Below, one piece after another: positions 9,652-61,882 of a stretch of 64,000 bases of DNA (the first letter of the stretch is position 1; the number at the start of each line of letters is the position of its first letter). Source of the DNA: Astropecten irregularis (lineage: Eukaryota > Echinodermata > Asteroidea > Paxillosida > Astropectinidae); NCBI GenBank assembly GCA_963971285.1, contig OZ020244.1, forward strand, positions 1,860,001-1,924,000, written 5' to 3'. The notes under the pieces were generated by a model. That model was not told the DNA's origin and made no database searches. It worked only from the letters and a program-made list of their open reading frames with translations. Both the position numbers and the translations under genes were made by a program.

Positions 9652-9765
9652 AGTAACAGGATCTTTATTGAATTATGAAAGCTAAAATTATAGCCTTCAA
9701 TAAAGATCCTGCTAGGATCGAAACGCATCAGGCCCTCCTAACTCCAAACAATATTCAATGTAATA
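9652..9765. mobile_element. Family 2 foldback copy
   Basis: An inverted partial copy (CAGGATCTTTATTGAATTAT) faces a full unit reading ATAGCCTTCAATAAA, GATCC, TGCTA, GGATC, GAAACGCATC, AGGCCCTCC, TAACTCC. The stem is perfect; the box before it is altered. Confidence 0.7.
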
Positions 9766-9792: not shown

Positions 9793-10011
9793 AGACCATT
9801 ACGAAACAGCGGCTCAGTCTCAGGCTCCAGCTCTGACATCCATGCTTCATTGAAACTGAAGCTCTGTTTTCCTCTTCATAACCAGAGAATCTATTTCCGA
9901 ACCGCTGCCAAAAGCATCTATTTTGATATACCCATTATTTGAGAATAGATTCATGAAAATGGAGCCGGAGCCTGAGATGGAGCCTGAGCCTCCATTTCGT
10001 AAACGCCCATA
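9793..10011. mobile_element. Foldback MITE, GGGCGTTTACGAAATGGAG ends
   Basis: ACGAAACAGCGGCTCAGTCT with CAGGCTCCAG at the left faces GAGCCTGAGCCTCCATTTCG with TAAACGCCC at the right. The Gly-Ser-rich minus frame 9847-10047 is read from the GGCTCC words and is not a gene. Confidence 0.75.
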
Positions 10012-12683
10012 ATTTAAACTCTTGTGTGAGTATGGGGTGGCTCTCAAAAGAGCCTGTTAACTCAACGTTCCGGTCAGGATGCTCTGGCCATCTTCTGAAG
10101 ACTGTACTTATGTACTTCCACCATGTAAATCAACCAATATTATCAATTTCTGAAATCTTCAAACCTTCCAATGCCAAACTACATGTAACATCTTTTTGAG
10201 AATGTTATCAATGAAGTAGTATCTCTCAAAATTTGTTCCGGTTCTAAAATGGAAATATTGCAGCGTGAAGAAAATCCAAATTGCTTGTTTGTATGTTTGA
10301 GGTTCCTGTATACCTTGCCTCAGTGCTTCACATTCATCCGCCAGATGGACATCACATTGCCTCTCATACTAGTAATATTCTAAAACAACACATTGAATAT
10401 TTCCTTGGTTGTTCTCCTTTAAGGTTGAATTTCACTTGATAGATATTGACACATATTGCCGTCTCTATAAATAGCCACAATTCCGCAAAATCTCCTCCAA
10501 ATTTAAGAGGGATCATGCAGGGTCTCCATGTTGGAGTGCAGTAGTGTAGTTTAAGACAGGTGTGTATTTATATTCCCAGCAAGGTGTAATCAATCAATCA
10601 AACGAAACACTGTATTCCTTCTCTGGAGTCCTGATATTTGAAGGAAATTTACAATCAGGGACACGTTGCAAGGTTGCTGATCTGAGAGCCTCAAGCAGTC
10701 ATGTTAAATAAGAAGCAGGCTGTTTATCGTCTTAATAAAAGCAGCGCAACTCCTCTCAAATTTCCTCTTTTTGTCCGCCTTTTTTTCCCGCCCAAGCCAT
10801 TGACCTGAACGCCAGCGTTCCGCTTCTCTCAATATTGTTTTATGTCCTGTGCATACATCCCAGCTCGGCTGAATTTTTTCTCCAAAGATCCTTGCGTCAC
10901 TGTGCAACCGGCTGGTGCTACTGAACTGAATGCCTTCCCATAGATCCTGAAATGAAATATGTAACACTGACCAAGAAGAGAAGCCCTTCTCCTCTTACAT
11001 AGACTCTGTTTACCTAGACTTGTTATCATCCCCTTCCCTCTCTTTTGCGGCATTATTTAATAGACGGTGTTGTGTTCTACAACTTTGGGCGAGGGAATTT
11101 GATTTGGACAGGAGCGGAACAAATTTCATGATAATTCCAGGTTTATCCTAAAACATTTTATTTTTGGTTCATGTTCACCTTTAAACTTTCTGTAAATCAT
11201 GTTGATTTCACAAAAAGTGCTCTGTTAATAAACGTTAGTGTTCAGAAAGTTGTAAAGCCTCCCCCCCCCTAATCCGTATCCCGATTATCTTTCTTGACCT
11301 CTCGTAATCCAGGATTATCCTTAATCCCTTCGAGTGCTGGGCAAAGTCGGGTGTTTTCATATCTGGTTACTGATTGCAAAAAAATTCAGGTTAACAGTTA
11401 ACCTATGTAATCACTTGGTGCCCAACGTGCATGATTTATGGTATCTTCTCTAATGTGATCGTCACTTTCGGAATGCTTTTTATGATGCTATTTTCAAGTA
11501 TTTACATGTAGATCAAGTACTTACGATGTTTCTTTTAGATCATGTTGGTGAAAAGCCTGCTTCTTTTTGGCAAAATGGACAAAATAAGTATGTATATTAC
11601 AGTTTGTTAAGCATGAGCCAAACGTTTGTCCCTTTTTTTTTCTTTCAGTTTCGGCTAACAGTTTGCAGAAATTTGTATTCGGATAATTAAACCCGGGTCG
11701 GTTCATCTATAACGGGATAAAAACACCAGCACTGATCCCTTTATTACTCCGATGGAAATGCCTAGTCGTAAAATATGAACACATCCTGATGATGGGACGT
11801 TTCCATGACGTTGCCCATGGTTATAGAATAACAATATTTTGTCCTTCACAAAGGCTCCTAAGATGAACCTTTCATTGAACAGTACAACATTTCTTATGTT
11901 TCCCCTTTTTCTAATATCCCTTTGTGTGGACATGCAGTTCTTTGTTACATCCTTTTAAAAGCATTTTCAAGTGCTTCATCAATCCAAACATTTTATAGTG
12001 TTATTATTATCATTGAATGGTTTTGATACCGAGTCATGTTTGGGCCGAGTTTATCCTTAAATCGATTCTGCATGGTAAATATGGATGGGAGTGCTTGTGT
12101 GTATGATTCATATGCCATGGGTTATTATTGTTCCAGTGGTGAAAAGATAACTGCACAAAGAATCCATTAGTATTCCTTAATTCCGTTATGGGTATTTTCC
12201 TTTCTGCAGGTTTTTGTATCAGTACTTTGTAATGAAATCATTACCCCCTGCAGTGCAATTCAAGGGAAATATGTATTGTACTCGCAGTATTATAGACCAT
12301 ACATGCCGAGAAATTACAGTACATGTACATTGATATTCCATTACAGTTCAGTGAACATACAATGAAATGCCATTGAATTGAACACAAAAACTATTAAGAA
12401 AATTAAAAGTCCATTGTTCCTACACAAGTACGGTGACTTCAATGCGTGATTCACTATAGGTCCAGAGAAATTAACAAGAATATTTTTATTGCAAAGAGTG
12501 CAAATTGACTGAACAGTATGAAACCTCCAACAGTAAAAGTAATTTTAGACTATATTCTAGTTGACGCCCCAAAGAAAATTCTTAATGACACCAATATATT
12601 TTGCAATATTGGATTCATATTTAGCTTGTTCAACCATTTAGCTCAGTCATGTCAGTGGTGCATGTACTTGGTATGACACCTCT

Positions 12684-14503: not shown

Positions 14504-14867
14504 TCCTAACTCTGACCATTTAGCCTTTGAGAAAGATCCTGCTAGGATTGAAACATCAGACCCTCCTAACCATCTAGCCTTTGTAGAAAGATCATGCTAG
14601 GATCGAAACATCAGGCCCTCCTAACTCTGACCATCTAGCCTTTGAGAAAGATCCTGCTAGGATTGAAACATCAGGCCCTCCTTACTCTGACCATTTAGCC
14701 TTTGAGAAAGATCCTGCTCGGATTGAAACATCAGGCCCTCCTAACTCTGACCATTTAACCTTTGAGAAAGATCCTGCTAGGATAGAAATGTCAGGCCCTC
14801 CTAACTCTGACCATTTAGCCTCTGAGAAAGATCCTGCTAGGATTGAAACATCAGGCGCTCCTTACTC
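14504..14867 (+). repeat. 60-bp minisatellite built from family 2 (GATCC) hammerhead-like units
   Basis: Six tandem units of 60 bp. Each reads TTTAGCCTTTGAGAAA, GATCC, TGCTA, GGATT, GAAACATC, AGGCCCTCC, TAACTCTGACC. Stem GATCC/GGATT is followed by GAAAC as in a hammerhead, but the box before the stem is TTGAGAA, not CTGANGA. The array ends about 50 bases before the PDCL exon at 14919. Confidence 0.9.
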
Positions 14868-14918
14868 TAATTTTATACATGTGATATTATTGTGCTTATC
14901 TTTTTGTTTGATTGACAG

Positions 14919-18477: not shown

Positions 18478-18740
18478 TTAACTCTCACCATTTAGCCTTT
18501 GAGAAAGATCCTGCTAGGACTGAAACATCAGGCCCTCCTAACTCTGACCATTTAGCCTCTGAGAAAGATCCTGCTAGGATTGAAACGTCAGGCTCTCTTA
18601 ACTCTCACCATTTAGCCTTTGAGAAAGATCCTGCTAGGACTGAAACATCAGGCCCTCCTAACTCTGACCATTTAGCCTCTGAGAAAGATCCTGCTAGGAC
18701 TGAAACATCAGGCCCTCCTAACTCTGACCATTTAGCCTTT

Positions 18741-19158
18741 GGGCAGTTCCAGCGTAACGGACATGACAATTACACAGTTTTTGCCTTATTCAGAGGATCA
18801 TAAAGTAGGATTGGCAGTTTGCAAACAATTTTAATTAGGCTTATCAGACACATTTAACTATCAGTGACATATGTAGTAAATTTTATGTAATTTCATTGAA
18901 CAGTTGTAGAGAAAATGCACTTCTTGTGACCGTAACGGACATGACAACTTAGTGTCATGTCCGTTACGGTCACAAGAAGTGCATTTTCTCTACAACTGTT
19001 CAATGAAATTACATAAAATTTACTACATATGTCACTGATAGTTAAATGTGTCTGATAAGCCTAATTAAAATTGTTTGCAAACTGCCAATCCTACTTTATG
19101 ATCCTCTGAATAAGGCAAAAACTGTGTAATTGTCATGTCCGTTACGCTGGAATTGCCC
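18741..19158. mobile_element. 418-bp near-perfect palindromic element
   Basis: Two arms of 206 bases (18741-18946 and 18953-19158) flank a six-base loop ACTTAG. Reading both arms, the only difference seen is at the sixth base. Termini are GGGCA...TGCCC, with CTTT on both sides as a probable 4-bp target duplication. The word GTAACGGACATGAC occurs four times, at the outer and inner end of each arm. No protein is encoded. The near-identical arms point to a very recent insertion, and a transcript would fold into a long hairpin. Confidence 0.9.
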
Positions 19159-20258
19159 CTTTGAGAAAGATCCTGCTAGGACTGAAACATAAGGCCCTCC
19201 TAACTCTGACCATTTAGCCTTTGAGAAAGATCCTGCTAGGACTGAAACATCAGGCCCTCCTAACTCTGACCATTTAGCCTTTGAGAAAGATCCTGCTAGG
19301 ACTGAAACATCAGGCCCTCCTAACTCTGACCATTTAGCCTCTGAGAAAGATCCTGCTAGGACTGAAACATCAGGCCCTCCTAACTCTGACCATTTAGCCT
19401 TTGAGAAAGATCCTGCTAGGACTGAAACATCAGGCCCTGCTATCTCTGACCATTTAGCCTCTGAGAAAGATTCTGCTGGGATTGAAAAATCAGGCCCTGC
19501 TAACTCTGACCATTTACCCTCTGAGAAAGATCCTGCTAGGATTGAAACGTCAGGGTCTCCTACCTCTCACCATTTAGTCTTTGAGAAAGATCCTGCTAGG
19601 ATTGAAACATCAGGCCTTCCTAACTCAGACCATTTAGCCTCTGACAAAGATCCTGCTAGGATTAAAATGTCAGATCTTCCTAACTCCAGTCAAATGATTT
19701 TGAAAGTGGGTAAAACATTGGAACCTAAAAAAACTGTCAACGTGATTTGTGTGATAATATTCCTACATGAACCCTTGAAGGGACATGAACTACACTCTGT
19801 CCTCGGTGAGTTTCAGATTTCATGAACCTGAAGGCACAAGAATCATTCCTCCACATATTGTATTTGAATGGCCGACATTTATATCCCCATGGAAAAACCA
19901 CCCAGGCAATTTCATAGGGGGACAAGTCAAGTTCCATTCCACCCACTTAGTGTTGATTCTATTGGAGATAGATCATAATGCTGGGCCCTCACCAGGAGAT
20001 AAATTGCTTGCCTGGGACAGGAAGTGAGAGGCCTGAGAAAGATTGGACACCTCTGTGGCCAGATATTAGCTGTTTCTCAATCTGTGCTTTGACCAATTTG
20101 TCTAATATCATTGGAAATAGATTGCTATTTTGAGGGTTTTATTTTTCAGAAAGAAAGGATGTCGACTGAAATATGTCATTTAGGCCTATTGGATAGTGTT
20201 GGGATGATACGTGTTTAAATATTCAGAGGACTGAAAATTGTAGCTTTCTTTAGTTGCT

Positions 20259-22540: not shown

Positions 22541-22937
22541 AACCTTTGAGAAAGATCCTGCTAGGATCGGAACCTTTGAGAAAGATCCTGCTAGGATCGA
22601 AAAACATCAGGTCCAGCGTTTGAGAAAGATCCTGCTAGGATCGGAACCTTTGAGAAAGATCCTGCTAGGATCGGAACTTTTGAGAAAGATCCTGCTAGGA
22701 TTGGAACCTTTGAGAAAGATCCTGCTAGGGTTAGGGTTTGGGTTAGGATCGGGACATCATGTCCATCCTTTGAGAAAGATCCTGCAAGGATCGGAACCTT
22801 TGAGAACGATCTTGCTAGGATTAGAATATCAGGTCCAGCGTTTGAGATACATCCTGCTAGGATTGAAACGTCAGGTATTTTATATATTGCAGGTCATTAT
22901 TTTGGTTGACAGAGCAGTTTATTTCTTGTATGGATTT
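22541..22937 (+). repeat. Family 2 array with shortened 29/30-bp unit, plus element tail
   Basis: About ten tandem copies of CCTTTGAGAAAGATCCTGCT followed by AGGATCGGAA. The unit has lost the AGGCCCTCC spacer, and GAAAC is mostly GGAAC. The last units regain the longer form (GAAACGTCAGG). They are followed by the family 2 tail, GGTCATTATTTTGGTTGAC then AGCAGTTTATTTCTTGTA (to 22937). The open frame over this array is repeat-derived. Confidence 0.85.
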
Positions 22938-30001: not shown

Positions 30002-30645
30002 GGCTTGGAGATAGGAGGGCCTGACATTTCGATCCTAGCAAGATCTTTAGCCTTTTAAAGGCTTTTCACACTATCCATAATCTCAGGGTTGGAACCAGAT
30101 CGAACCCCGAGATTTTTTTCAATCCTTTTCACACTTCAAGAACATTTTCAACCCCGAGCCAACCCGGGTAGGATAGCCTAGGACAGTTATAAACGTAGTG
30201 TGAACGTTGCTTCTCTTTGATCCGGTTCAAAAACATGCCGGGCTGAAACGGGGTGGATCCGGGTTGGTTTCAACACGGATCGAAAAGGAGATGTGTGAAA
30301 AGGCCTTAAATGACAAGAGGATAAGAACATTCAAGTCAAAGATACACATAAATGGATATGAGGATCAGAACAAAGGGGGACAAAGTGACCAGGGAAACAG
30401 GAATAGCATGAGGGGACATAGAGGTGTTGAGGGTTTGGAAGATCAAATTTATTTATGCTTGGAGTTAAAAGGGCCTGACGCGTTTCAATCCTAGCAGGAT
30501 CTTTCTCCTCGGAGAAAGATCTCCAGGAGAAAGATCCTGCTACATGTAGGATTGAAACGCATCAGGACCTCCTACCTCCAAGCATTTTATATATTTCGGG
30601 TCATTTTGGCTGATGAGCAGTTTGCAGCAGTTTATTACTTGTGTT
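30002..30645. mobile_element. Family 2 foldback element with a nested TTAA MITE
   Basis: The left unit is inverted (30002-30054). The interior (30306-30460) shares ATGACAAGAGG, AAGAACATTCAAG and GGATATGAGGATC with the copies at 40.6 and 54.7 kb. A second inverted unit and a direct unit meet at 30475-30560. The tail follows: GGTCATTTTGGCTGATGAGC, then AGTTTGCAGCAGTTTATTAC and TTGT. A MITE (30059-30305) interrupts it. Confidence 0.75.
30059..30305. mobile_element. TTAA-flanked MITE, GGCTTTTCACACTATCC termini
   Basis: Flanked by TTAA at 30055-30058 and 30306-30309. Termini are AGGCTTTTCACACTATCC and GTGTGAAAAGGCC. The interior holds the AACCCCGAGATT and CCAACCCGGGT words also found at 15138-15445. 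It is nested in a family 2 element. Confidence 0.8.
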
Positions 30646-34700: not shown

Positions 34701-34828
34701 CATAGTCTGACCTTTCAAGAGAATACAGGTCAGGAACTTAATTCTCACTGGGGTGATGTAACGTCCCTAGACATAGCGCTGTTGCATGAGAGACACTTGA
34801 ACTCTACCAGGGCACCCAGGCAGTGTGG

Positions 34829-37800
34829 ACAGCTAACCAGAGGCATGGATGCAATGATTACCAGCTAACCAGAGGCATCAAGACAATGATGACCAGCTAA
34901 CCAGAGGCATCAAGGCAATGATAACCAGCTAACCAGAGGCATCAAGGCAATGATGGCCAGCTAACCAGAGGCATTAAAGGCAATGATGGCCAGCTAACCA
35001 GAGGCATCAAGGCAATGATGGCCAGCTAACCAGAGGCATCAAGGACATGATGACCAGCTAATCAGAGGCATCAAGGCAATGATGGCCAGCTAATCAGAGG
35101 CATCAAGGCAATGATGGCCAGCTAACCAGAGGCATCAAGGCAATGACGGCCAGCTAACCAGAGGCATCAAGGCAATGATGGCCAGCTAACCAGAGGCATC
35201 AAGGCAATGATGGCCAGCTAATCAGAGGCATCAAGGCAATGATGTCCAGCTAACCAGAGGCATCAAGGCAATGATGGCCAGCTAACCAGAGGCATCAAAG
35301 GAAATGATGGCCAGCTTACCAGAGGCATCAAGGCAATGATGACCAGCTAACCAGAGGCATCAAGGCAATGATGGCCAGCTAACCAGAGGCATCAAGGCAA
35401 TGATGGCCAGCTAACCAGAGGCATCAAGGCAATGATGACCAGCTAATCAGAGGCATCAAGGCAATGATGACCAGCTAATCAGAGGCATCAAGGCAATGAT
35501 GGCCAGCTAATCAGAGGCATCAAGGCAATGATGGCCAGCTAACCAGAGGCATCAAGGCAATGACGGCCAGCTAACCAGAGGCATCAAGGCAATGATGGCC
35601 AGCTAACCAGAGGCATTAAAGGCAATGATGGCCAGCTAACCAGAGGCATCAAGGCAATGATGGCCAGCTAATCAGAGGCATCAAGGCAATGATGGCCAGC
35701 TAATCAGAGGCATCAAGGCAATGATGGCCAGCTAACCAGAGGCATTAAAGGCAATGACGGCCAGCTAACCAGAGGCATCAAGGCAATGATGGCCAGCTAA
35801 CCAGAGGCATTAAAGGCAATGATGGCCAGCTAACCAGAGGCATTAAAGGCAATGATGGCCAGCTAATCAGAGGCATCAAGGCAATGATGGCCAGCTAATC
35901 AGAGGCATCAAGGCAATGATGGCCAGCTAACCAGAGGCATCAAGGCAATGACGGCCAGCTAACCAGAGGCATCAAGGCAATGATGGCCAGCTAACCAGAG
36001 GCATCAAGGCAATGATGACCAGCTAATCAGAGGCATCAAGGCAATGATGACCAGCTAATCAGAGGCATCAAGGCAATGATGGCCAGCTAATCAGAGGCAT
36101 CAAGGCAATGATGGCCAGCTAACCAGAGGCATCAAGGCAATGACGGCCAGCTAACCAGAGGCATCAAGGCAATGATGGCCAGCTAACCAGAGGCATCAAG
36201 GCAATGACGGCCAGCTAACCAGAGGCATCAAGGCAATGATGGCCAGCTAACCAGAGGCATCAAGGCAATGATGGCCAGCTAACCAGAGGCATCAAGGCAA
36301 TGACGGCCAGCTAACCAGAGGCATCAAGGCAATGACGGCCAGCTAACCAGAGGCATCAAGGCAATGATGGCCAGCTAACCAGAGGCATCAAGACAATGAT
36401 GACCAGCTAATCAGAGGCATCAAGGCAATCATGACCAGCTAACCAGAGTCATCAAGGCAATGATGGCCAGCTAACCAGAGGCATCAAGGCAATGATGGCC
36501 AGCTAACCAGAGGCATTAAAGGCAATGATGGCCAGCTAACCAGAGGCATCAAGGCAATGATGGCCAGCTAACCAGAGGCATCAAGGCAATGATGGCCTGC
36601 TAACCAGAGGCATCAAGGCAATGATGGCCAGCTTACCAGAGGCATCAAGACAATGATGGCCAGCTAACCAGAGGCATCAAGACAATCATGACCAGCTAAC
36701 CAGAGGCATCAAGACAATCATGACCAGCTAACCAGAGGCATCAAGACAATGATGGCCAGCTAACCAGAGGCATCAAGACAATGATGGCCAGCTTACCAGA
36801 GGCATCAAGGCAATGATGGCCAGCTAACCAGAGGCATCAAGGCAATGATGGCCTGCTAACCAGAGGCATCAAGGCAATGATGGCCAGTTAACCAGAGGCA
36901 TCAAGGCAATGATGGCCAGCTTACCAGAGGCATCAAGGCAAGGATGGCCTGCTAACCAGAGGCATCAAGGCAATGATGGCCAGCTTACCAGAGGCATCAA
37001 GGCAATGATGGCCAGCTAACTAGAGGCATTAAAGGCAATGATGGCCTGCTAACCAGAGGCATCAAGGCAATGATGGCCTGCTAACCAGAGGCATCAAGGC
37101 AATGATGGCCAGTTAACCAGAGGCATCAAGGCAATGATGGCCAGCTAACTAGAGGCATTAAAGGCAATGATGGCCAGCTAACTAGAGGCATCAAGGCAAT
37201 GATGGCCAGCTAACCAGAGGCATCAAGGCAATGATGGCCAGCTTACCAGAGGCATCAAGGCAATGATGGCCAGCTAACCAGAGGCATCAAGGCAATGATG
37301 GCCTGCTAACCAGAGGCATCAAGGCAATGATGGCCAGCTTACCAGAGGCATCAAGGCAATGATGGCCAGCTAACTAGAGGCATTAAAGGCAATGATGGCC
37401 TGCTAACCAGAGGCATCAAGGCAATGATGGCCTGCTAACCAGAGGCATCAAGGCAATGATGGCCAGCTTACCAGAGGCATCAAGGCAATGATGGCCAGCT
37501 AACCAGAGGCATCAAGGCAATGATGGCCTGCTAACCAGAGGCATCAAGGCAATGATGGCCAGCTTACCAGAGGCATCAAGGCAATGATGGCCAGCTAACT
37601 AGAGGCATTAAAGGCAATGATGGCCTGCTAACCAGAGGCATCAAGGCAATGATGGCCAGCTTACCAGAGGCATCAAGGCAATGATGGCCAGCTAACTAGA
37701 GGCATTAAAGGCAATGATGGCCTGCTAACCAGAGGCATCAAGGCAATGATGGCCAGCTTACCAGAGGCATCAAGGCAATGATGGCCAGCTAACTAGAGGC

Positions 37801-38456
37801 ATTAAAGGCAATGATGGCCAGCTAACCAGAGGCATCAAGGCAATGATGGCCTGCTAACCAGAGGCATCAAGGCAATGATGGCCAGCTTACCAGAGGCATC
37901 AAGGCAATGATGGCCAGCTAACCAGAGGCATCAAGGCAATGATGGCCTGCTAACCAGAGGCATCAAGGCAATGATGGCCAGCTTACCAGAGGCATCAAGG
38001 CAATGATGGCCAGCTAACTAGAGGCATTAAAGGCAATGATGGCCTGCTAACCAGAGGCATCAAGGCAATGATGGCCAGCTTACCAGAGGCATCAAGGCAA
38101 TGATGGCCAGCTAACTAGAGGCATTAAAGGCAATGATGGCCTGCTAACCAGAGGCATCAAGGCAATGATGGCCAGCTTACCAGAGGCATCAAGGCAATGA
38201 TGGCCAGCTAACTAGAGGCATTAAAGGCAATGATGGCCAGCTAACCAGAGGCATCAAGGCAATGATGGCCTGCTAACCAGAGGCATCAAGGCAATGATGG
38301 CCAGCTTACCAGAGGCATCAAGGCAATGATGGCCTGCTAACCAGATGCATCAAGGCAATGATGGCCAGCTTACCAGAGGCATCAAGGCAATGATGGCCAG
38401 CTTACCAGAGGCATTAAAGGCAATGATGGCCAGCTAACCAGAGGCATCAAGGCAAT
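34829..38456 (+). repeat. Large 32/33-bp minisatellite (about 113 units)
   Basis: The unit is GGCCAGCTAACCAGAGGCAT followed by CAAGGCAATGAT (32 bp). A variant with ATTAAAGG in place of ATCAAGG is 33 bp. The 5' half is rich in TAATCAGAGG, GATGACC and GACGGCC variants; the 3' half in CTGCTAACC, CAGCTTACC and AACTAGAGG variants. From about 37560 to 38240 these form a 97-bp three-unit higher-order repeat (spacings between successive AGCTTACC units of 97, 97, 129, 96, 97 and 97). The unit is not a multiple of three and no open frame crosses it. It lies within the last PDCL intron, about 2.7 kb before the terminal exon. Confidence 0.97.
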
Positions 38457-40110: not shown

Positions 40111-40226
40111 GTTCTCCGGATGATGACTAGAGCAGGCTAGTCGAAACATTGAGACCTTACGAGAAGTGCGAATGAAATACAAGTGCGAAAGTACAAACGA
40201 TTCTTACATGGTGTTTTCTCACAATA
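40111..40226 (+). mobile_element. Family 1 copy with decayed hammerhead core
   Basis: Reads CGGATGA (40117-40123; U4 changed to G), extra T, GACTAG, AGCAGG, CTAGTC, GAAAC (40143-40147), ATT, GAGACC, then the family tail to about 40226 (CATGGTGTTTTCTC). Stem II is perfect, but the core change should inactivate it. Useful for showing which parts the family conserves. Confidence 0.6.
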
Positions 40227-40548: not shown

Positions 40549-40930
40549 ACAAGTAATATATTGCTGCAAACTGCTCATCAGCCAAAATGACCTGAAATAT
40601 ATCAAATGCTTGGAGTTGGGAGAACTTGACTCGTTTCGATCCTAGCAGGATCTTTCTTAAAGGGTAAATTACAAGGAACAAGAACATGCAAGTGGAAGAT
40701 GCCCATGAATGGATATGAGGATCGGGACAAGGGTATTTTAGGTAAGAGTGGTCAGACAAAGATGGGTCGGATAGGCAAGATCTTAACCAGATAGGCAAGA
40801 TCAAAGGTACATTTGATCTTGCCTATTCATGGGCATCTTCCACTTGCATGTTCTTGTTCCTTGTAATTTAGCCTTTGAGAAAGATCCTGCCAGGATCGAA
40901 ACGCGGCAGGCCCTCCCAACTCCAAGCGCA
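40549..40930. mobile_element. Family 2 complete foldback element
   Basis: Starts with the inverted tail (CAAGTAATATATTGCTGCAA, CTGCTCATCAGCC), then an inverted GATCC unit, then inner arms that pair (TTACAAGGAACAAGAACATG with its complement at 40848-40867), then a direct unit at 40869-40920. In that unit GCCT, TTGAGAA, extra A, GATCC, TGCCA, GGATC and GAAAC are intact, but the cleavage triplet is GGC rather than NUH. It ends about 195 bases before the last PDCL exon. Confidence 0.75.
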
Positions 40931-42612: not shown

Positions 42613-43373
42613 GCGCAGAAATCTTTTCCATTTACATGAGACTTGCTGATTCCAACACGGCTCAAGTCCCAGGAAAGCGTCTCAGGGTTTTTCTCTCAGA
42701 GCTGGATTGGTGAAGATTCAGCAAATTTCCTCACCAAAATGCCCAAGGGGTAAGAGTTAAATTATACATCAAGCAACCGTTGCAGTAATGGCTAACAACA
42801 GTAGCTGGTTCGCTTCTGAACTTTCCAACCCCTATCAAAATTAGTCAAATAACAAAGCAGCAGCAACGCACAAACAAAATCTCTTTTTATTTTAAGCAAA
42901 GCTCTGCAATTATGCCTTGGATTTGTACACAAAATTGACCATTTACTCTAAAGATGTGCCTCACGTAGAGCATATTTGTCAAAACTGAATCACATCTAAA
43001 ATGTATTTTGTAATACTCTATTATTAAGTACTATATAAACAATGTATTGTGGAGGCGTGAATTTGTGCACCATACAGCTTATGTATTATAATGAGTGGGC
43101 TTAGATACTCCTGTAGGATTTCAAAACAAATTTAAATGCAAGTGTGTTTACTCATTGAAAAAAAAACAAGGTTCCGTAAACACAGGTCACTTATATTCAT
43201 TTTCTTGCCAGTATCTTTAAAGCCCAATATTTAAGCATTGGGTGTATTACTTGGTCAATCCACCATTAGTTTAGTACATGTACAGTAAATAGATACCGTG
43301 ATGGTAGATGTGTTAAATACGTGCATGTTGTTCTGGGGCCAATTTCATAGAGCTGCTTAAGCACTAACATTTG

Positions 43374-43688
43374 AAGAAAGATTTGAGGCTTTGCATGGTG
43401 ACAATTGGTATGTGGATCGGTTTGCCTAAACACCATGTAAGAATCATTCATACTTTTGCACTTCTGTTTCGATGTCGCACTTCTTAATTCCAACTTCTCA
43501 TCAGGTCTCTCTAGTTTCGACTAGCCTGCTCTAGTCCTCATCAGGTCTCCTGATGAGGACTAGAGCAGGCTAGTCGAAACGTTGAGACCTTACAATAAGT
43601 GTGAACGAAACAGAAATGCGAAAATATGAACGATTCTTACATGGTGTTTACGCAAACCGATCCACATACCAATATTTGCTTAATCACA
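43374..43688. mobile_element. Family 1 foldback element carrying two head-to-head hammerhead cores
   Basis: The left half (43374-43544) and right half (43550-43688) are inverted copies. Each runs from a hammerhead core through a tail rich in GTGCGAA-like words, CATGGTGTTTACGCAAACCGA and a CCACATACCAAT-like end. The minus core also has CTGATGA and GAAAC but TAGA in place of GTT before GAGACC, so its cleavage triplet is damaged. The element sits inside another MITE (43335-43882). Non-autonomous; no protein is encoded. Confidence 0.7.
43544..43589 (+). ncRNA. Candidate hammerhead ribozyme core, family 1, most intact copy
   Basis: The pieces read in order: GGTCTC (43544-43549, stem I 3' strand), CTGATGA (43550-43556, positions C3-A9), one extra G (43557), GACTAG (43558-43563), loop AGCAGG, CTAGTC (43570-43575, perfect complement of GACTAG, stem II), GAAAC (43576-43580), GTT (cleavage triplet, 43581-43583), GAGACC (43584-43589, perfect complement of GGTCTC, stem I 5' strand). 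All invariant core bases are present. Stem III is only the palindrome ACGT with no loop, so pairing would need two copies in tandem or in trans. One extra base after A9 is known in a natural viroid hammerhead (chrysanthemum chlorotic mottle viroid, plus strand). A second core lies head-to-head on the other strand at 43538-43544. Confidence 0.6.
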
Positions 43689-44275
43689 AATAACCTAGGT
43701 GAATAAAATCAGCATGCCAGCCAAAACTCCTTGTGAATGTTATGCTCAGCAAACAGTGGACGAATTCAAGTCAAAAGCAGTAAACATCACATGAAAATTT
43801 GGTTGATAATCCTGTGTGATCAAGGAAGACTTTTCATGCTTAAGCAATTGTTTTGCTTAAGCAGTTTTTTGAAATTGGCCCCTGGTGTTAACTAATTGAA
43901 TGAGTTTGACATTGATGTTTTGACTTCAGTGCCCTGCTCTATGAATATATGCAGAAATTAAACCACATGTTTTTTTCCAGAGGTTAGGCATATACATAAA
44001 TTTATACAGACAAATCTTCGCTGTAGATTATCATTTCAAAGTACTCTCCCTAAGGCAGAATAATCTATCTGTAGACAATACGTTTCATGTCGATCCAATC
44101 ATGTTTTGAATTGTAATTGCAGGGATTAGTCTCAGATTTATTTATTTATCAGCCTTTTGCTCTTCAGTTCTCTAAGGAAACATATGCCAGAAAATTATTC
44201 TACCTTTGCTTGAACTTAAACTGTTTTGACTTTAATATTTTTTTTACTGTTTCTCAAGTTGCAGCATTGCTGCGC

Positions 44276-48063: not shown

Positions 48064-48312
48064 GGGGGCAATTTCACAGCTCTGCTAAGCACAACAATTT
48101 GCTAAGCATGACATTTCTGTCTTAATAAAAACAGGGTTTGCAACCAAATTTCCATGTGTTGTGTATCACTTGCGATTGCTCTTTGACTGTTCTTCACTGA
48201 CCATGAATATCAAATAAAATTTTAACGGTGGTTTCAGGGTTTTTTTTATTGGGGAAGACATTTTAGTGCTAAGCAAATTTCTGTGCTTAGCAGCTCCATG
48301 AAATTGGCCCCA
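48064..48312. mobile_element. Foldback MITE, GCTAAGCAC type
   Basis: GGGGGCAATTTCACAGCTCT-GCTAAGCACAAC pairs with CTGTGCTTAGCAGCTCCATG-AAATTGGCCCC. Confidence 0.75.
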
Positions 48313-51986: not shown

Positions 51987-52346
51987 TAAAATGCTTGGAG
52001 TTAGGAGGGCCTGACGTTTCGATCCTAGCAGGATCTTTCTCGAAGGCTATATGATCAGAGTTAGGAGGGCCTGCTGTTTTCAATCCTAGCAGGATCTTTC
52101 CCAAAGGCTATAAATGGTCAGAGTTGGGAGGACATGATATTTCAATCCTAGCAGGATCTTTCCTAAAGGCTAAATGGTCAGAGTAATAAGAGGGCCTGGC
52201 GTTTCTATCCAAGCAGAATCTTTCTCGAAGACTAAAAGTCCTGCGATGATCGAAACGGCAGGCCATTCTATAACTCCAAGCATTTTATATATTCCATGTC
52301 CATTATTTTGGCTGATGAGCAGTTTGCAGAAGTTTATTACTTGCAC
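51987..52346. mobile_element. Family 2 foldback element with four inverted units
   Basis: Four inverted units follow each other (51995-52050, 52058-52110, 52117-52165, 52185-52230) with spacers reading ATGGTCAGAGTTAGGAGG-like words. They face a degraded direct unit and the complete tail ending at AGAAGTTTATTACTTG. It links the dispersed element with the tandem form seen as minisatellites at 14.5 and 18-19 kb. Confidence 0.75.
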
Positions 52347-53164: not shown

Positions 53165-53335
53165 GCAACTATTTGTGATGATAACTAGAACAGGCTAGTC
53201 GAAACGTTGAGACCTAACCAAAAGTGCAACGAAATAAGAAGTGCGAAAGTACGAACGAATATTACATGGGTGTTTCCGCAAACCGATCCACGTACTTATT
53301 GTCACTATGCAAAGCCCCAAATCTGTCTTCATTTC
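53165..53335 (+). mobile_element. Family 1 copy with decayed hammerhead core
   Basis: Reads GTGATGA (53175-53181; C3 changed to G), extra T, AACTAG, AACAGG, CTAGTC, GAAAC (53201-53205), GTT, GAGACC (53209-53214), then a full tail ending around CAAAGCCCCAAATCTGTC. The tail end marks the likely element boundary. Confidence 0.6.
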
Positions 53336-53394: not shown

Positions 53395-53455
53395 CTTAGA
53401 GTTGGGAGGGCCTGACGTGTTTCGATCCTAGCGGGATCTTTATCGAAGGCTATAA
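53395..53455 (-). repeat. Family 2 solo unit
   Basis: On the minus strand: ATAGCCTTCGATAAA, GATCC, CGCTA, GGATC, GAAACACGTC, AGGCCCTCC. The stem is perfect and position 8 is A. Confidence 0.65.
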
Positions 53456-56484: not shown

Positions 56485-56682
56485 GCTGCTTGGAGTTAGG
56501 AGGACCTGGCGCGTTTCGATCTAGCACAGGATCTTTATAGAAGGCTAAAAAGCCTTCGTTTAATATCCTGATTGGATCGGAACGCGTCAGGCCCTCCTAA
56601 CTCCAAGCATTTGATAAATTTCTGGTCATAATTTTGGCTGATGAATAGTTTGCAGCAGTTTATTACTTGTATAATATAAGTT
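56485..56682. mobile_element. Family 2 compact foldback element
   Basis: An inverted unit (56490-56545) faces a direct unit (56555-56605) with the matched spacer GGCCCTCCTAACTCCAAGC, followed by the tail TTTTGGCTGATGAATAGTTT and AGCAGTTTATTACTTG. Confidence 0.7.
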
Positions 56683-60179: not shown

Positions 60180-60622
60180 CTATACACAGTACAGACGTAC
60201 GTGGGTGTGCACGTAGCGTAGCACGGCGTCATCTGCTACGGTGATATGTGTCACTAGGTTTCACTGCACACCTGAACTTGGGGAAATTATCACATAGGGA
60301 GGACGTTCGGCGTTGGCACGCAGGTTTTCTTGAGGGAGTAAAGCATGTCCTCCCATGCATAATCGCCAAGTCCAGGACAACATTACGGTCTAGTGACAGG
60401 GTCATCGAACTTGGTATACACCTGGTTTCTTGTCAGTGTGTTGATGAGGATGCTGCGAGGAGGTAAGGCGGTTATGGACTGTTGTTCCACCCAGTGTTTC
60501 CCGCTAGGATATCAGGCTTGGACTTGGATGGAATGTCATGGTGATTACTAGTGGAGCTGGATCGTACCTTGGTTGCCTACAAGCAGCACCTCACAGCCAG
60601 CTTGTGTGTCCCCTGACCAGGC
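60180..60622 (+). other. GC-rich upstream region, possible 5' UTR exon with splice donor
   Basis: This stretch is clearly richer in G and C than its neighbours and precedes the signal-peptide exon. An AG|gtaagg donor occurs at 60462/60463 and a plausible acceptor (cagcacctcacag) ends at 60596, which would define a short 134-base intron before the exon with the start codon. The open frame 60248-60466 here resembles no known family and is more likely untranslated. The exact start of transcription is not visible. Confidence 0.25.
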
Positions 60623-60965
60623 ATGCTAGTTCCATCCACCGTGCTGCCTCTTACAATGATCCTCGGTCTGCCCTTCACGTCAGCCCGTAGCGACCACCAG
60701 GCACAGTCTGCCCCAACCTCCTTACCTCCTGGGGTCGGGGCAGGCCTCTTCTCAGGCTGCACGGGGGATCAATTCTGGGTGAATGTCACGAGGAGACATG
60801 ATGGCGATGCCTTGATAAGTGCCTGCCCGAGGTGTGGGGATCTATGCCGGCGGGCCCGGGCCATCAGGCTCCGCTGCGATTTGAGGGAATATCCATGTAC
60901 CTGTAGATGCCCGGAAAATCAGACTTTTAGGACCGACATCAACCTGTGTGTAGATTCCTTCTCGG
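60623..60965 (+). CDS. Putative first coding exon of a secreted or membrane cysteine-rich protein (TNF-receptor-like spacing)
   Basis: Starts at the first ATG after an in-frame TGA (60614-60616). The frame gives a hydrophobic leader (MLVPSTVLPLTMILGLPF, then TSARS), a Pro/Ser/Gly-rich linker, then a cysteine-rich module from about residue 50. The Cys order is C-x22-C-PR-C-GDL-C-x9-C-x6-C, then CxC and a last Cys in TDINLC. This resembles an A1-B2 TNF-receptor module, with an N-glycosylation site NVT inside it and NQT near its end. A consensus donor (cgg|gtaagt) follows at 60966, leaving phase 1, so transmembrane or further domains would lie in later exons beyond the window. The frame stays open past the donor to 61150, but that part runs into a TIR transposon and is unlikely to be coding. 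The region is richer in G and C than its surroundings. The family assignment is tentative; any small Cys-rich extracellular module is possible. Confidence 0.45.
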
Positions 60966-61007
60966 GTAAGTCACTAACCCTATGCCTTCTCTTCCTTCCT
61001 CCATGCT

Positions 61008-61274
61008 TAAAGGTAGTATCATACTTTTGTAAACATACCAAAACAGGGTATGAAGATGATGATGGTAAAAACATACTGTTAACATTTGTCTGCCCGAAAT
61101 GCTGTATTTATCCAGAAAGGAGTAAAACCAGTGACCAAAATAATTTTTGATCTTTTAAAGATCAAAAATGGGATAGACATTTTCACAGATGACTGTTACT
61201 GTATCTTCCTTGATATTTTTGCCCATGAATCTGTATTTCTATGACAAAAACCAAAGTATGATATTACCTTTAAA
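61008..61274 (+). mobile_element. TIR-A element, internally deleted copy (267 bp)
   Basis: TTAAAGGTAGTATCATACTT at the left and AAAGTATGATATTACCTTTAA at the right, with a shortened middle. It starts 42 bases after the splice donor of the signal-peptide exon and explains why the open frame continues past the donor. Confidence 0.8.
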
Positions 61275-61675: not shown

Positions 61676-61882
61676 AAGAAAGATTTGAGGCTTTTTATGG
61701 TGACAATAACGTGGATGTGTTTGCAGAAACACCATGTAATATTCGTTCGTACTTCGCACTTCTATTTTGTTCGCACTTATTGTCTCAACGTTTTGACTAA
61801 CCTGCTCTAGTCATCATCAGGAGACCGTTCTCGTAAGGTCTCAACGTTTCGACTTGCCTGCTCTAGTCGTCATCAGGATTCT
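61676..61882 (-). mobile_element. Family 1 element, tail plus tandem cores
   Basis: In minus orientation the two cores are followed by the family tail: GTGCGAACAAAATAG-like words, the CATGGTGTTTCTGCAAAC region and an end near GCCTCAAATCTTTC. The tail matches those at 43.4, 40.1 and 53.2 kb. It lies about 700 bases downstream of the putative signal-peptide exon, in what would be its first intron. Confidence 0.6.
61781..61882 (-). ncRNA. Tandem pair of hammerhead-like cores, family 1
   Basis: Read on the minus strand, the upstream unit has CTGATGA (61876-61870), an extra C, GACTAG, AGCAGG, CAAGTC (one stem II mismatch) and intact GAAAC, followed by GTT and GAGACC (61842-61837). A ten-base loop TTACGAGAAC separates this from GGTCTC (61826-61821), which pairs with GAGACC to make a closed stem I. 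The second unit follows: CTGATGA (61820-61814), extra T, GACTAG, AGCAGG, TTAGTC, then AAAAC in place of GAAAC (G12 to A). This is the tandem order expected if two ACGT palindromes pair as a shared stem III. The second unit's defect probably prevents cleavage of this copy. Confidence 0.55.

Follow-up and report, generated by a model that had tools for sequence, protein, structure and literature searches.

Introduction

Minimal hammerhead ribozymes are reportedly carried by Penelope-like elements (PLEs), as set out by Cervera and de la Pena in 2014 and by Lunse et al. in 2017. Passages of two reports place such hammerheads, without helix III and in tandem, in the pseudo-LTRs of these elements (PMC7761336, PMC6155905), and a passage of the former notes a stable helix III in the majority of type I hammerheads from invertebrate genomes (PMC7761336). 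A dimeric hammerhead, according to an extract of a further source, needs a palindrome in the loop of stem III together with a tandem arrangement (PMC6466107). For Penelope elements, sections of PMC3846280 describe inverted pseudo-LTRs (pLTRs) of 181-218 bp, mostly in head-to-head order, with palindromes at the inverted junction and, in three instances, target-site duplications (8, 9 and 10 bp); in those sections the authors favour self-priming on an antisense template, a sense template not being excluded. A preference for AT-rich DNA and for an ATT motif is described for one PLE enzyme (PMC11167929).

Here we analyse a hammerhead motif in a 64,000-nucleotide stretch of Astropecten irregularis DNA (the window). 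The locus is, in our judgement, probably a non-autonomous Penelope-type insertion, a head-to-head pair of pseudo-LTR-like units with minimal hammerheads, seated in a MITE, and it was assigned to this class because the locus and its family combine an inverted architecture, a junction palindrome and minimal hammerheads.

Results

Read letter for letter, the forward strand at 43544-43589 contains a hammerhead motif with an intact core. The 5' strand of stem I (GGTCTC, 43544-43549) is followed by the core CTGATGA (43550-43556), an extra G at 43557 (one base after A9) and stem II, whose strands GACTAG (43558-43563) and CTAGTC (43570-43575) enclose the loop AGCAGG (43564-43569); GAAAC (43576-43580) and GTT (43581-43583) then lead into the 3' strand of stem I (GAGACC, 43584-43589), with the cut predicted after 43583. 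Both stems are fully complementary, and in standard hammerhead numbering C3-A9, G12-A15.1, U16.1 and H17 are all present, so that the conserved core and stems I and II of a hammerhead are in place. The exact order of parts, the perfect stems and the complete invariant core given in the original prediction are thus borne out by the letters. An extra base after A9 is tolerated in a viroid hammerhead. Stem III is nearly absent, GAAAC-GTT allowing two possible pairs and no loop, as in the minimal hammerheads of the Penelope type.

The loose pattern CTGATGA-N5..35-GAAAC matched four times in the window against 0.43 expected, and a strict scan (core CTGANGA, stems II and I of at least 5 pairs each, GAAA and UH) returned one site, compared with 2 sites in 200 dinucleotide-preserving shuffles of the whole window (~0.01 per window). 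The search with Rfam models that had been proposed as a check was run on the window and gave no hammerhead family at the gathering threshold over its whole length, and none at E values up to 10 on 43300-43900 or on 43546-43610; the missing stem III and the extra base may explain this miss.

The hammerhead is part of one arm of a perfect palindrome at 43514-43580, detected by inverted-repeat search and hairpin scoring: an exact inverted copy of 43549-43580 sits 3 nt upstream, giving 32-nt arms (43514-43545 and 43549-43580) around the loop TCT, centred at 43547. It is the strongest short-loop hairpin of the window (score 32, next 14) among the five sites, counted after merging those within 30 nt of each other, that have a loop of up to 5 nt and score 12 or more. 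The palindrome forms the junction of two head-to-head units that make up a 297-bp insert (43374-43670). By alignment, the right unit (43544-43670, forward strand, 127 bp) has its hammerhead end inwards and its body truncated at ...CATACCA, and the inverted left unit (43374-43549, reverse strand, 176 bp) extends to TCTTTCTT. The outer parts of the units are also complementary (43404-43471 versus 43606-43673, 93%), and the two units differ outside the 32-bp core. The left-unit hammerhead has TAGA instead of GTT after GAAAC and is predicted to be dead. A second CTGATGA...GAAAC string on the same strand in the left unit (43466-43504) fails the strict scan, and the right unit holds no second hammerhead in the same orientation. 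Set against the architecture described in sections of PMC3846280, 43374-43670 has the head-to-head units and the junction palindrome of the Penelope type. The original description of the motif is correct, but its frame was too narrow, the inverted setting having been overlooked.

The insert lies within a host MITE that spans 43335-43882 (548 bp including the insert) and is bounded by terminal inverted repeats at 43335-43363 and 43854-43882. In a single-subject comparison, 43723-43882 aligned to a sibling MITE at 48064-48311 with 67% identity over 161 columns (E 3e-19). Comparison of the flanks identified two target-duplication-like 8-mers, AACATTTG on the left (43366-43373) and AATATTTG on the right (43671-43678), which are identical at seven of eight positions. 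An earlier empty-site test was poorly scored and uninformative (63 versus a maximum of 64 in 500 random joins). When the test was redone with softer scoring, the joined empty site outscored the filled site against two sibling MITE sequences (33 versus 28 and 32 versus 27), a result equalled by random joins in 66 and 101 of 2000 trials. An automatic target-duplication search ranked TGCTTAAGCAC/TGCTTAATCAC, by our reading a repeat inside the MITE, above AACATTTG/AATATTTG; the latter pair would score 5, and a score of at least 5 was reached in 402 of 1000 random site pairs. Insertion into the MITE is supported mainly by MITE sequence on both sides, and the 8-bp duplication is likely. Insertions without target duplication are also known for Penelope elements, as a passage of PMC3846280 indicates.

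Units of the same family (family A) occupy four loci in the window (40112-40216, 43374-43670, 53170-53331 and 61676-61881) and contain six hammerheads, five besides 43544-43589. Copy A (40112-40216, forward strand) has a truncated body and a hammerhead with U4 changed to G; its stem I has four continuous pairs (5 of 6), and the 5' strand TTCTC, which recurs right after the copy, may be target DNA. Copy C (53170-53331, forward strand) has C3 changed to G and no stem I. Copy D (61676-61881, reverse strand) has tandem hammerheads at 61837-61881 and 61781-61825, the first (D1) lacking stem I and the second with G12 changed to A, for which it is predicted to be dead; only the hammerhead is duplicated, not the body, and the spacer reads GAGACC-TTACGAGAAC-GGTCTC. 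As their extra base the six hammerheads have G, G, T, T, C and T, respectively. Core and UH bases are intact in two of the six (43544 and D1), and the core with both full stems in 43544-43589 alone, which does not support the original prediction; in a second family, described below, none of 46 matches has G at the G8 column. Candidate target duplications of copies A and D (TTCTC, score 5, and TCAAGA, score 6) were rejected, since random site pairs reach these scores in 402 and 192 of 1000 cases, and the automatic search found none at copy C.

A covariance model built from the six family-A hammerheads recovered all six at E below 1e-15, as it must by construction, together with one weak match at 10058-10102 (E 0.028) and nine further rows at E 0.89 to 4.9. 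The weak match, on the reverse strand, is a possible decayed third hammerhead-like copy, with a stem II near GGCCAG/CTGACC, an extra T and the loop AGCATC; it adjoins a histone 3' UTR stem-loop (10014-10059, reverse strand) that scored above the Rfam threshold, and visual inspection of the three reverse-strand frames over 9801-11200 revealed no histone open reading frame (ORF). Across the six copies stem II is paired in 94.4% of cells. Covariation lends the pairing no support, as 0 pairs carry changes in both partners and an equal number of paired cells was reached in 393 of 500 shuffles. Pairwise identity was 0.87 in the hammerhead and 0.82 in the body (9 of 10 pairs, with the Bl/Br pair excluded and copy D represented by its second hammerhead); the difference is small and the pairs are not independent, and purifying selection on the family-A hammerhead was accordingly rejected as a reading of it. 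Three patterns searched against viral_contigs and one against genome_contigs gave 0 matches, and the repeat letters, sought in literature text, gave matches for CTGATGAAGATCC alone, unrelated by title.

Alternatively, family A could be an animal non-LTR retrozyme, a kind of element in which tandem transcripts of a short unit are cleaved by its hammerheads and then circularised. A unit of ~150-200 bp is near the published 150-450 bp, a hammerhead is present, and copy D has two in tandem. However, none of the 12 rows of the window tandem-repeat search is a unit-length family-A array, copy D repeats the hammerhead only, and stem III is absent, in contrast to the stable helix III of most invertebrate type I hammerheads (PMC7761336, in the passage cited above). 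Moreover, the apparent start of the copies is close to CTGATGA and not at the predicted cut site, their exact ends being uncertain. We regard a retrozyme as unlikely.

The long hairpin could instead be the working product of the locus, either as a foldback or MITE-like element or as a dsRNA or miRNA-like precursor, the hammerhead likeness being incidental here. The palindrome is predicted to fold at -76.8 kcal/mol (z -14.2) and the 297-nt insert at -180 kcal/mol, and the hairpin is matched by three microRNA families of Rfam (E 2.7e-8 to 1.6e-6). These matches lie far below the gathering scores and look like generic hairpin matches, however, and copies A, C and D have the same hammerhead but no inverted partner that we could find; we rate this reading a shade lower than the retrozyme. 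A Penelope-type inverted pair remains our preferred interpretation, and the predicted folds bear on whether its hammerhead could act.

In the isolated 46-mer (43544-43589) both stems are predicted at pair probabilities of 0.976-1.0 and the full target structure at 0.21. In all four longer transcripts modelled (43530-43620, 43500-43620, 43374-43670 and 43335-43882) the hammerhead pair probability was 0.0, these predictions referring to equilibrium without proteins. With the 3' end fixed at 43620, stem II was kept for starts at 43544 and 43540, partial (0.38-0.70) at 43535 and at 0.0 for starts at 43530, 43525 and 43520. Because the motif is lost in the longer transcripts, self-cleavage in cis at 43544-43589 is very unlikely in these models, and the ribozyme, intact in sequence, would be silent in cis. 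The hammerhead of the Anolis element is helped by its own protein (PMC11167929).

An active, selected ribozyme at 43544-43589, working in cis or as a dimer, is accordingly hard to credit. This is the one family-A hammerhead of six with the core and both full stems intact, its stems are predicted to form in the 46-mer, and pairing of the right unit with a second copy of itself is predicted at -39.4 kcal/mol, against -36.4 for two monomers. Yet the paired form is duplex-like rather than a clear double hammerhead, the predicted probability falls to 0.0 once the left arm is included, the right unit has no tandem copy, and identity between copies is little higher in the hammerhead than in the body (the 0.87 and 0.82 given above). 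Chance resemblance to a hammerhead can practically be dismissed, since the motif, though short, met with only 2 strict sites in 200 shuffles and belongs to a set of six related copies in which 94.4% of the stem II cells are paired.

The original prediction held that an ACGT palindrome serves as stem III and that cleavage needs a dimer. AACGTT of one tandem unit could indeed pair with that of the next, and the tandem junction in copy D has as its minimum-energy fold a hammerhead-like three-way junction, with AACGTT/AACGTT and GAGACC/GGTCTC paired, CTGATGA unpaired, stem II next and the extra T paired with the mutated position 12. A 58-nt piece of copy D without the complete upstream AACGTT is predicted to form two hairpins only (z -1.3; 18 of 200 shuffles as stable). 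At 43544-43589, by contrast, the models show the motif tied up in pairing with its complement, and the dimer idea, judged by these folds, fits tandem units such as copy D and not this locus.

A second family (family B) gave 48 matches in the window with a profile from four seed units, many of them in 60-bp tandem arrays. Its plan is like that of family A, with stems I and II spaced by 8 nt, GATCC/GGATY as stem II, GAAAC and an AGGC closure. Tandem-repeat and profile searches placed 60-bp arrays on the forward strand at 14504-14868 (hammerhead-like units with a YTGAGAA+A core and no G8), 18479-18738 and 19158-19686. Family-B arrays also lie at 22541-22821 and 51998-52236, the array units measuring 30, 60 and 62 bp, and in one frame such arrays (14504-14868 and others) read as repeats like AFEKDPARIET. 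At 34806-38456 a 32-bp unit is repeated 113.6 times, with 93% matches, in a satellite-like array.

On an alignment that assumes one extra base after A9, the G8 column of family B has 45 A, 1 T and no G in 46 matches, and the C3 column, over 43 matches, has 35 T and 8 C; the C3-G8 pair is U-A in 34, C-A in 8 and U-U in 1 of 43. An alternative alignment, with U7 missing and two extra bases, could also apply. Single exchanges of C3 or G8 reportedly abolish hammerhead activity, and C3G/G8C rescues it partly (PMC11167929). The U-A combination of family B is, from its letters, a possible compensated core variant.

Opposite-strand neighbours of the same family within 1 kb were head-to-head in six of six cases and convergent in none, which under random orientation has a chance of 1 in 64 (one-sided). 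Two convergent neighbours within 1 kb mix families A and B, and a same-family convergent pair, 52236-52269 (forward strand) and 53405-53452 (reverse strand), lies 1136 bp apart, just past the 1-kb cut-off, with one weak partner and a family-A copy in between. Two of the six head-to-head pairs include weak matches (E 0.0029 and 0.002), and inverted arms of at least 6 are present at four pairs and absent at two. Those of family B are at 30466-30573 (18-nt arms, 15-nt loop), 40608-40927 (79-nt arms with 3 mismatches, 114-nt loop) and 56496-56600 (7-nt arms, AAAA loop). The segment 40608-40927 is also a large inverted repeat, with 103-bp arms at 92% identity and family-B units in both arms. Outside the six pairs, arms of 16 nt with a 23-nt loop are found at 9657-9711 and arms of 7 nt with a 1-nt loop at 30049-30063. 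Because the six pairs were collected through hammerhead-like matches, the hammerheads at their junctions are not independent evidence, and the other pairs in the window cannot by themselves show a tie between ribozyme and junction.

No reverse transcriptase or GIY-YIG domain was found in the 20 ORFs scanned among 128 stop-to-stop ORFs of at least 70 aa; a non-autonomous copy needs no Penelope ORF. One ORF (60617-61147, forward strand) matches PF23328, the Shavenoid isoform B N-terminal domain, at E 1.1e-9 and has no similar chain among the sequences of solved structures at E up to 0.1. This Shavenoid-like domain, the histone-type stem-loop and the types of repeat present are taken as signs of an animal host. 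A tRNA scan of the window gave nothing.

Discussion

The motif at 43544-43589 is real and of a known kind, in an unusual local setting that, on the predicted folds, most likely disables cleavage. The original view of a hammerhead-bearing dispersed element holds in part: the motif, with essentially no stem III, does lie in a dispersed repeat without a recognised ORF, but the unit here is half of a head-to-head inverted pair. We propose that one pseudo-LTR-like unit is present twice, as copies of 176 and 127 bp in head-to-head order, and that the pair was inserted into the MITE with an 8-bp target duplication, each unit starting with a minimal hammerhead that would have no usable stem III. Any activity of the family's hammerheads would be expected in tandem transcripts, in which the AACGTT of adjacent units could pair as stem III. 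A transcript with ~16 nt or more of the left arm would form the hairpin instead of the ribozyme, and the motif would persist as a passenger.

For the origin of the junction we infer a reverse-transcription step. A template RNA starting at GGTCTCCTGATGAGG would give a cDNA ending ...CCTCATCAGGAGACC-3'; once reverse transcription had reached the 5' end of the unit, the 3' end of the cDNA could fold back (GG-TCT-CC, 3-nt loop), its terminal CC pairing with GG across AGA, and extension would yield exactly the observed junction. This route would need a sense template only. Snap-back alone would not account for the whole insert, given the divergence of the two units beyond the 32-bp core, and since the arms are identical for 32 nt and then diverge, a template switch or a later change must be added; in our scheme, the self-primed cDNA would switch template after ~32 nt. 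The scheme suits one junction well; of the remaining five, three have arms, with loops of 4, 15 and 114 nt, and two lack arms, for which reasons fold-back is put forward as a proposal.

A stronger version, to which we attach little probability, is that the hammerhead region and the junction palindrome are two results of one fold-back step at the stem I strand GGTCTCC (the GG-TCT-CC mini-hairpin), each head-to-head insertion being born with its ribozyme locked in a hairpin, a built-in off switch. If this were true, a sense RNA template would be allowed where an antisense one had been favoured. The hammerhead lies exactly at the inverted junction, whose 3-nt loop fits fold-back of a cDNA end. 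If fold-back held for junctions found regardless of hammerheads, the ribozyme region would be tied to the making of inverted copies, and one could predict which copies can and cannot cut.

Among known systems, metazoan non-LTR retrozymes, as far as described in part of PMC7229834, share with this locus a short non-coding unit with a type I hammerhead, but no unit-length tandem array occurs in the window and stem III is missing here. The Poseidon element of Anolis, PAc, shares the AT-rich target; unlike this locus, it has a full ORF and an active protein, and its hammerhead cleaved only with the protein present (PMC11167929). The minimal PLE hammerheads, in the passages available from PMC7761336, PMC6155905 and PMC6466107, share the core, stems I and II, the missing stem III and possible action as a tandem dimer, and their thousands of dispersed copies in animal genomes we count as a further likeness. 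Family A may differ in its one extra base after A9 (G, T or C), and 43544-43589 lies in a perfect inverted pair, not in tandem. With endonuclease-containing Penelope elements, in the sections of PMC3846280 that describe them, the locus shares head-to-head terminal units, a junction palindrome, a short target duplication (seen there in some cases, and likely here) and an AT-rich target, whereas no such ORF was found here among the 20 of 128 scanned. The term hammerhead has 0 occurrences in PMC3846280, and antisense-template self-priming is favoured in those sections, whereas fold-back of a cDNA end on a sense template would also fit the junction described here. Motifs like this one have been described before in animal Penelope-like elements.
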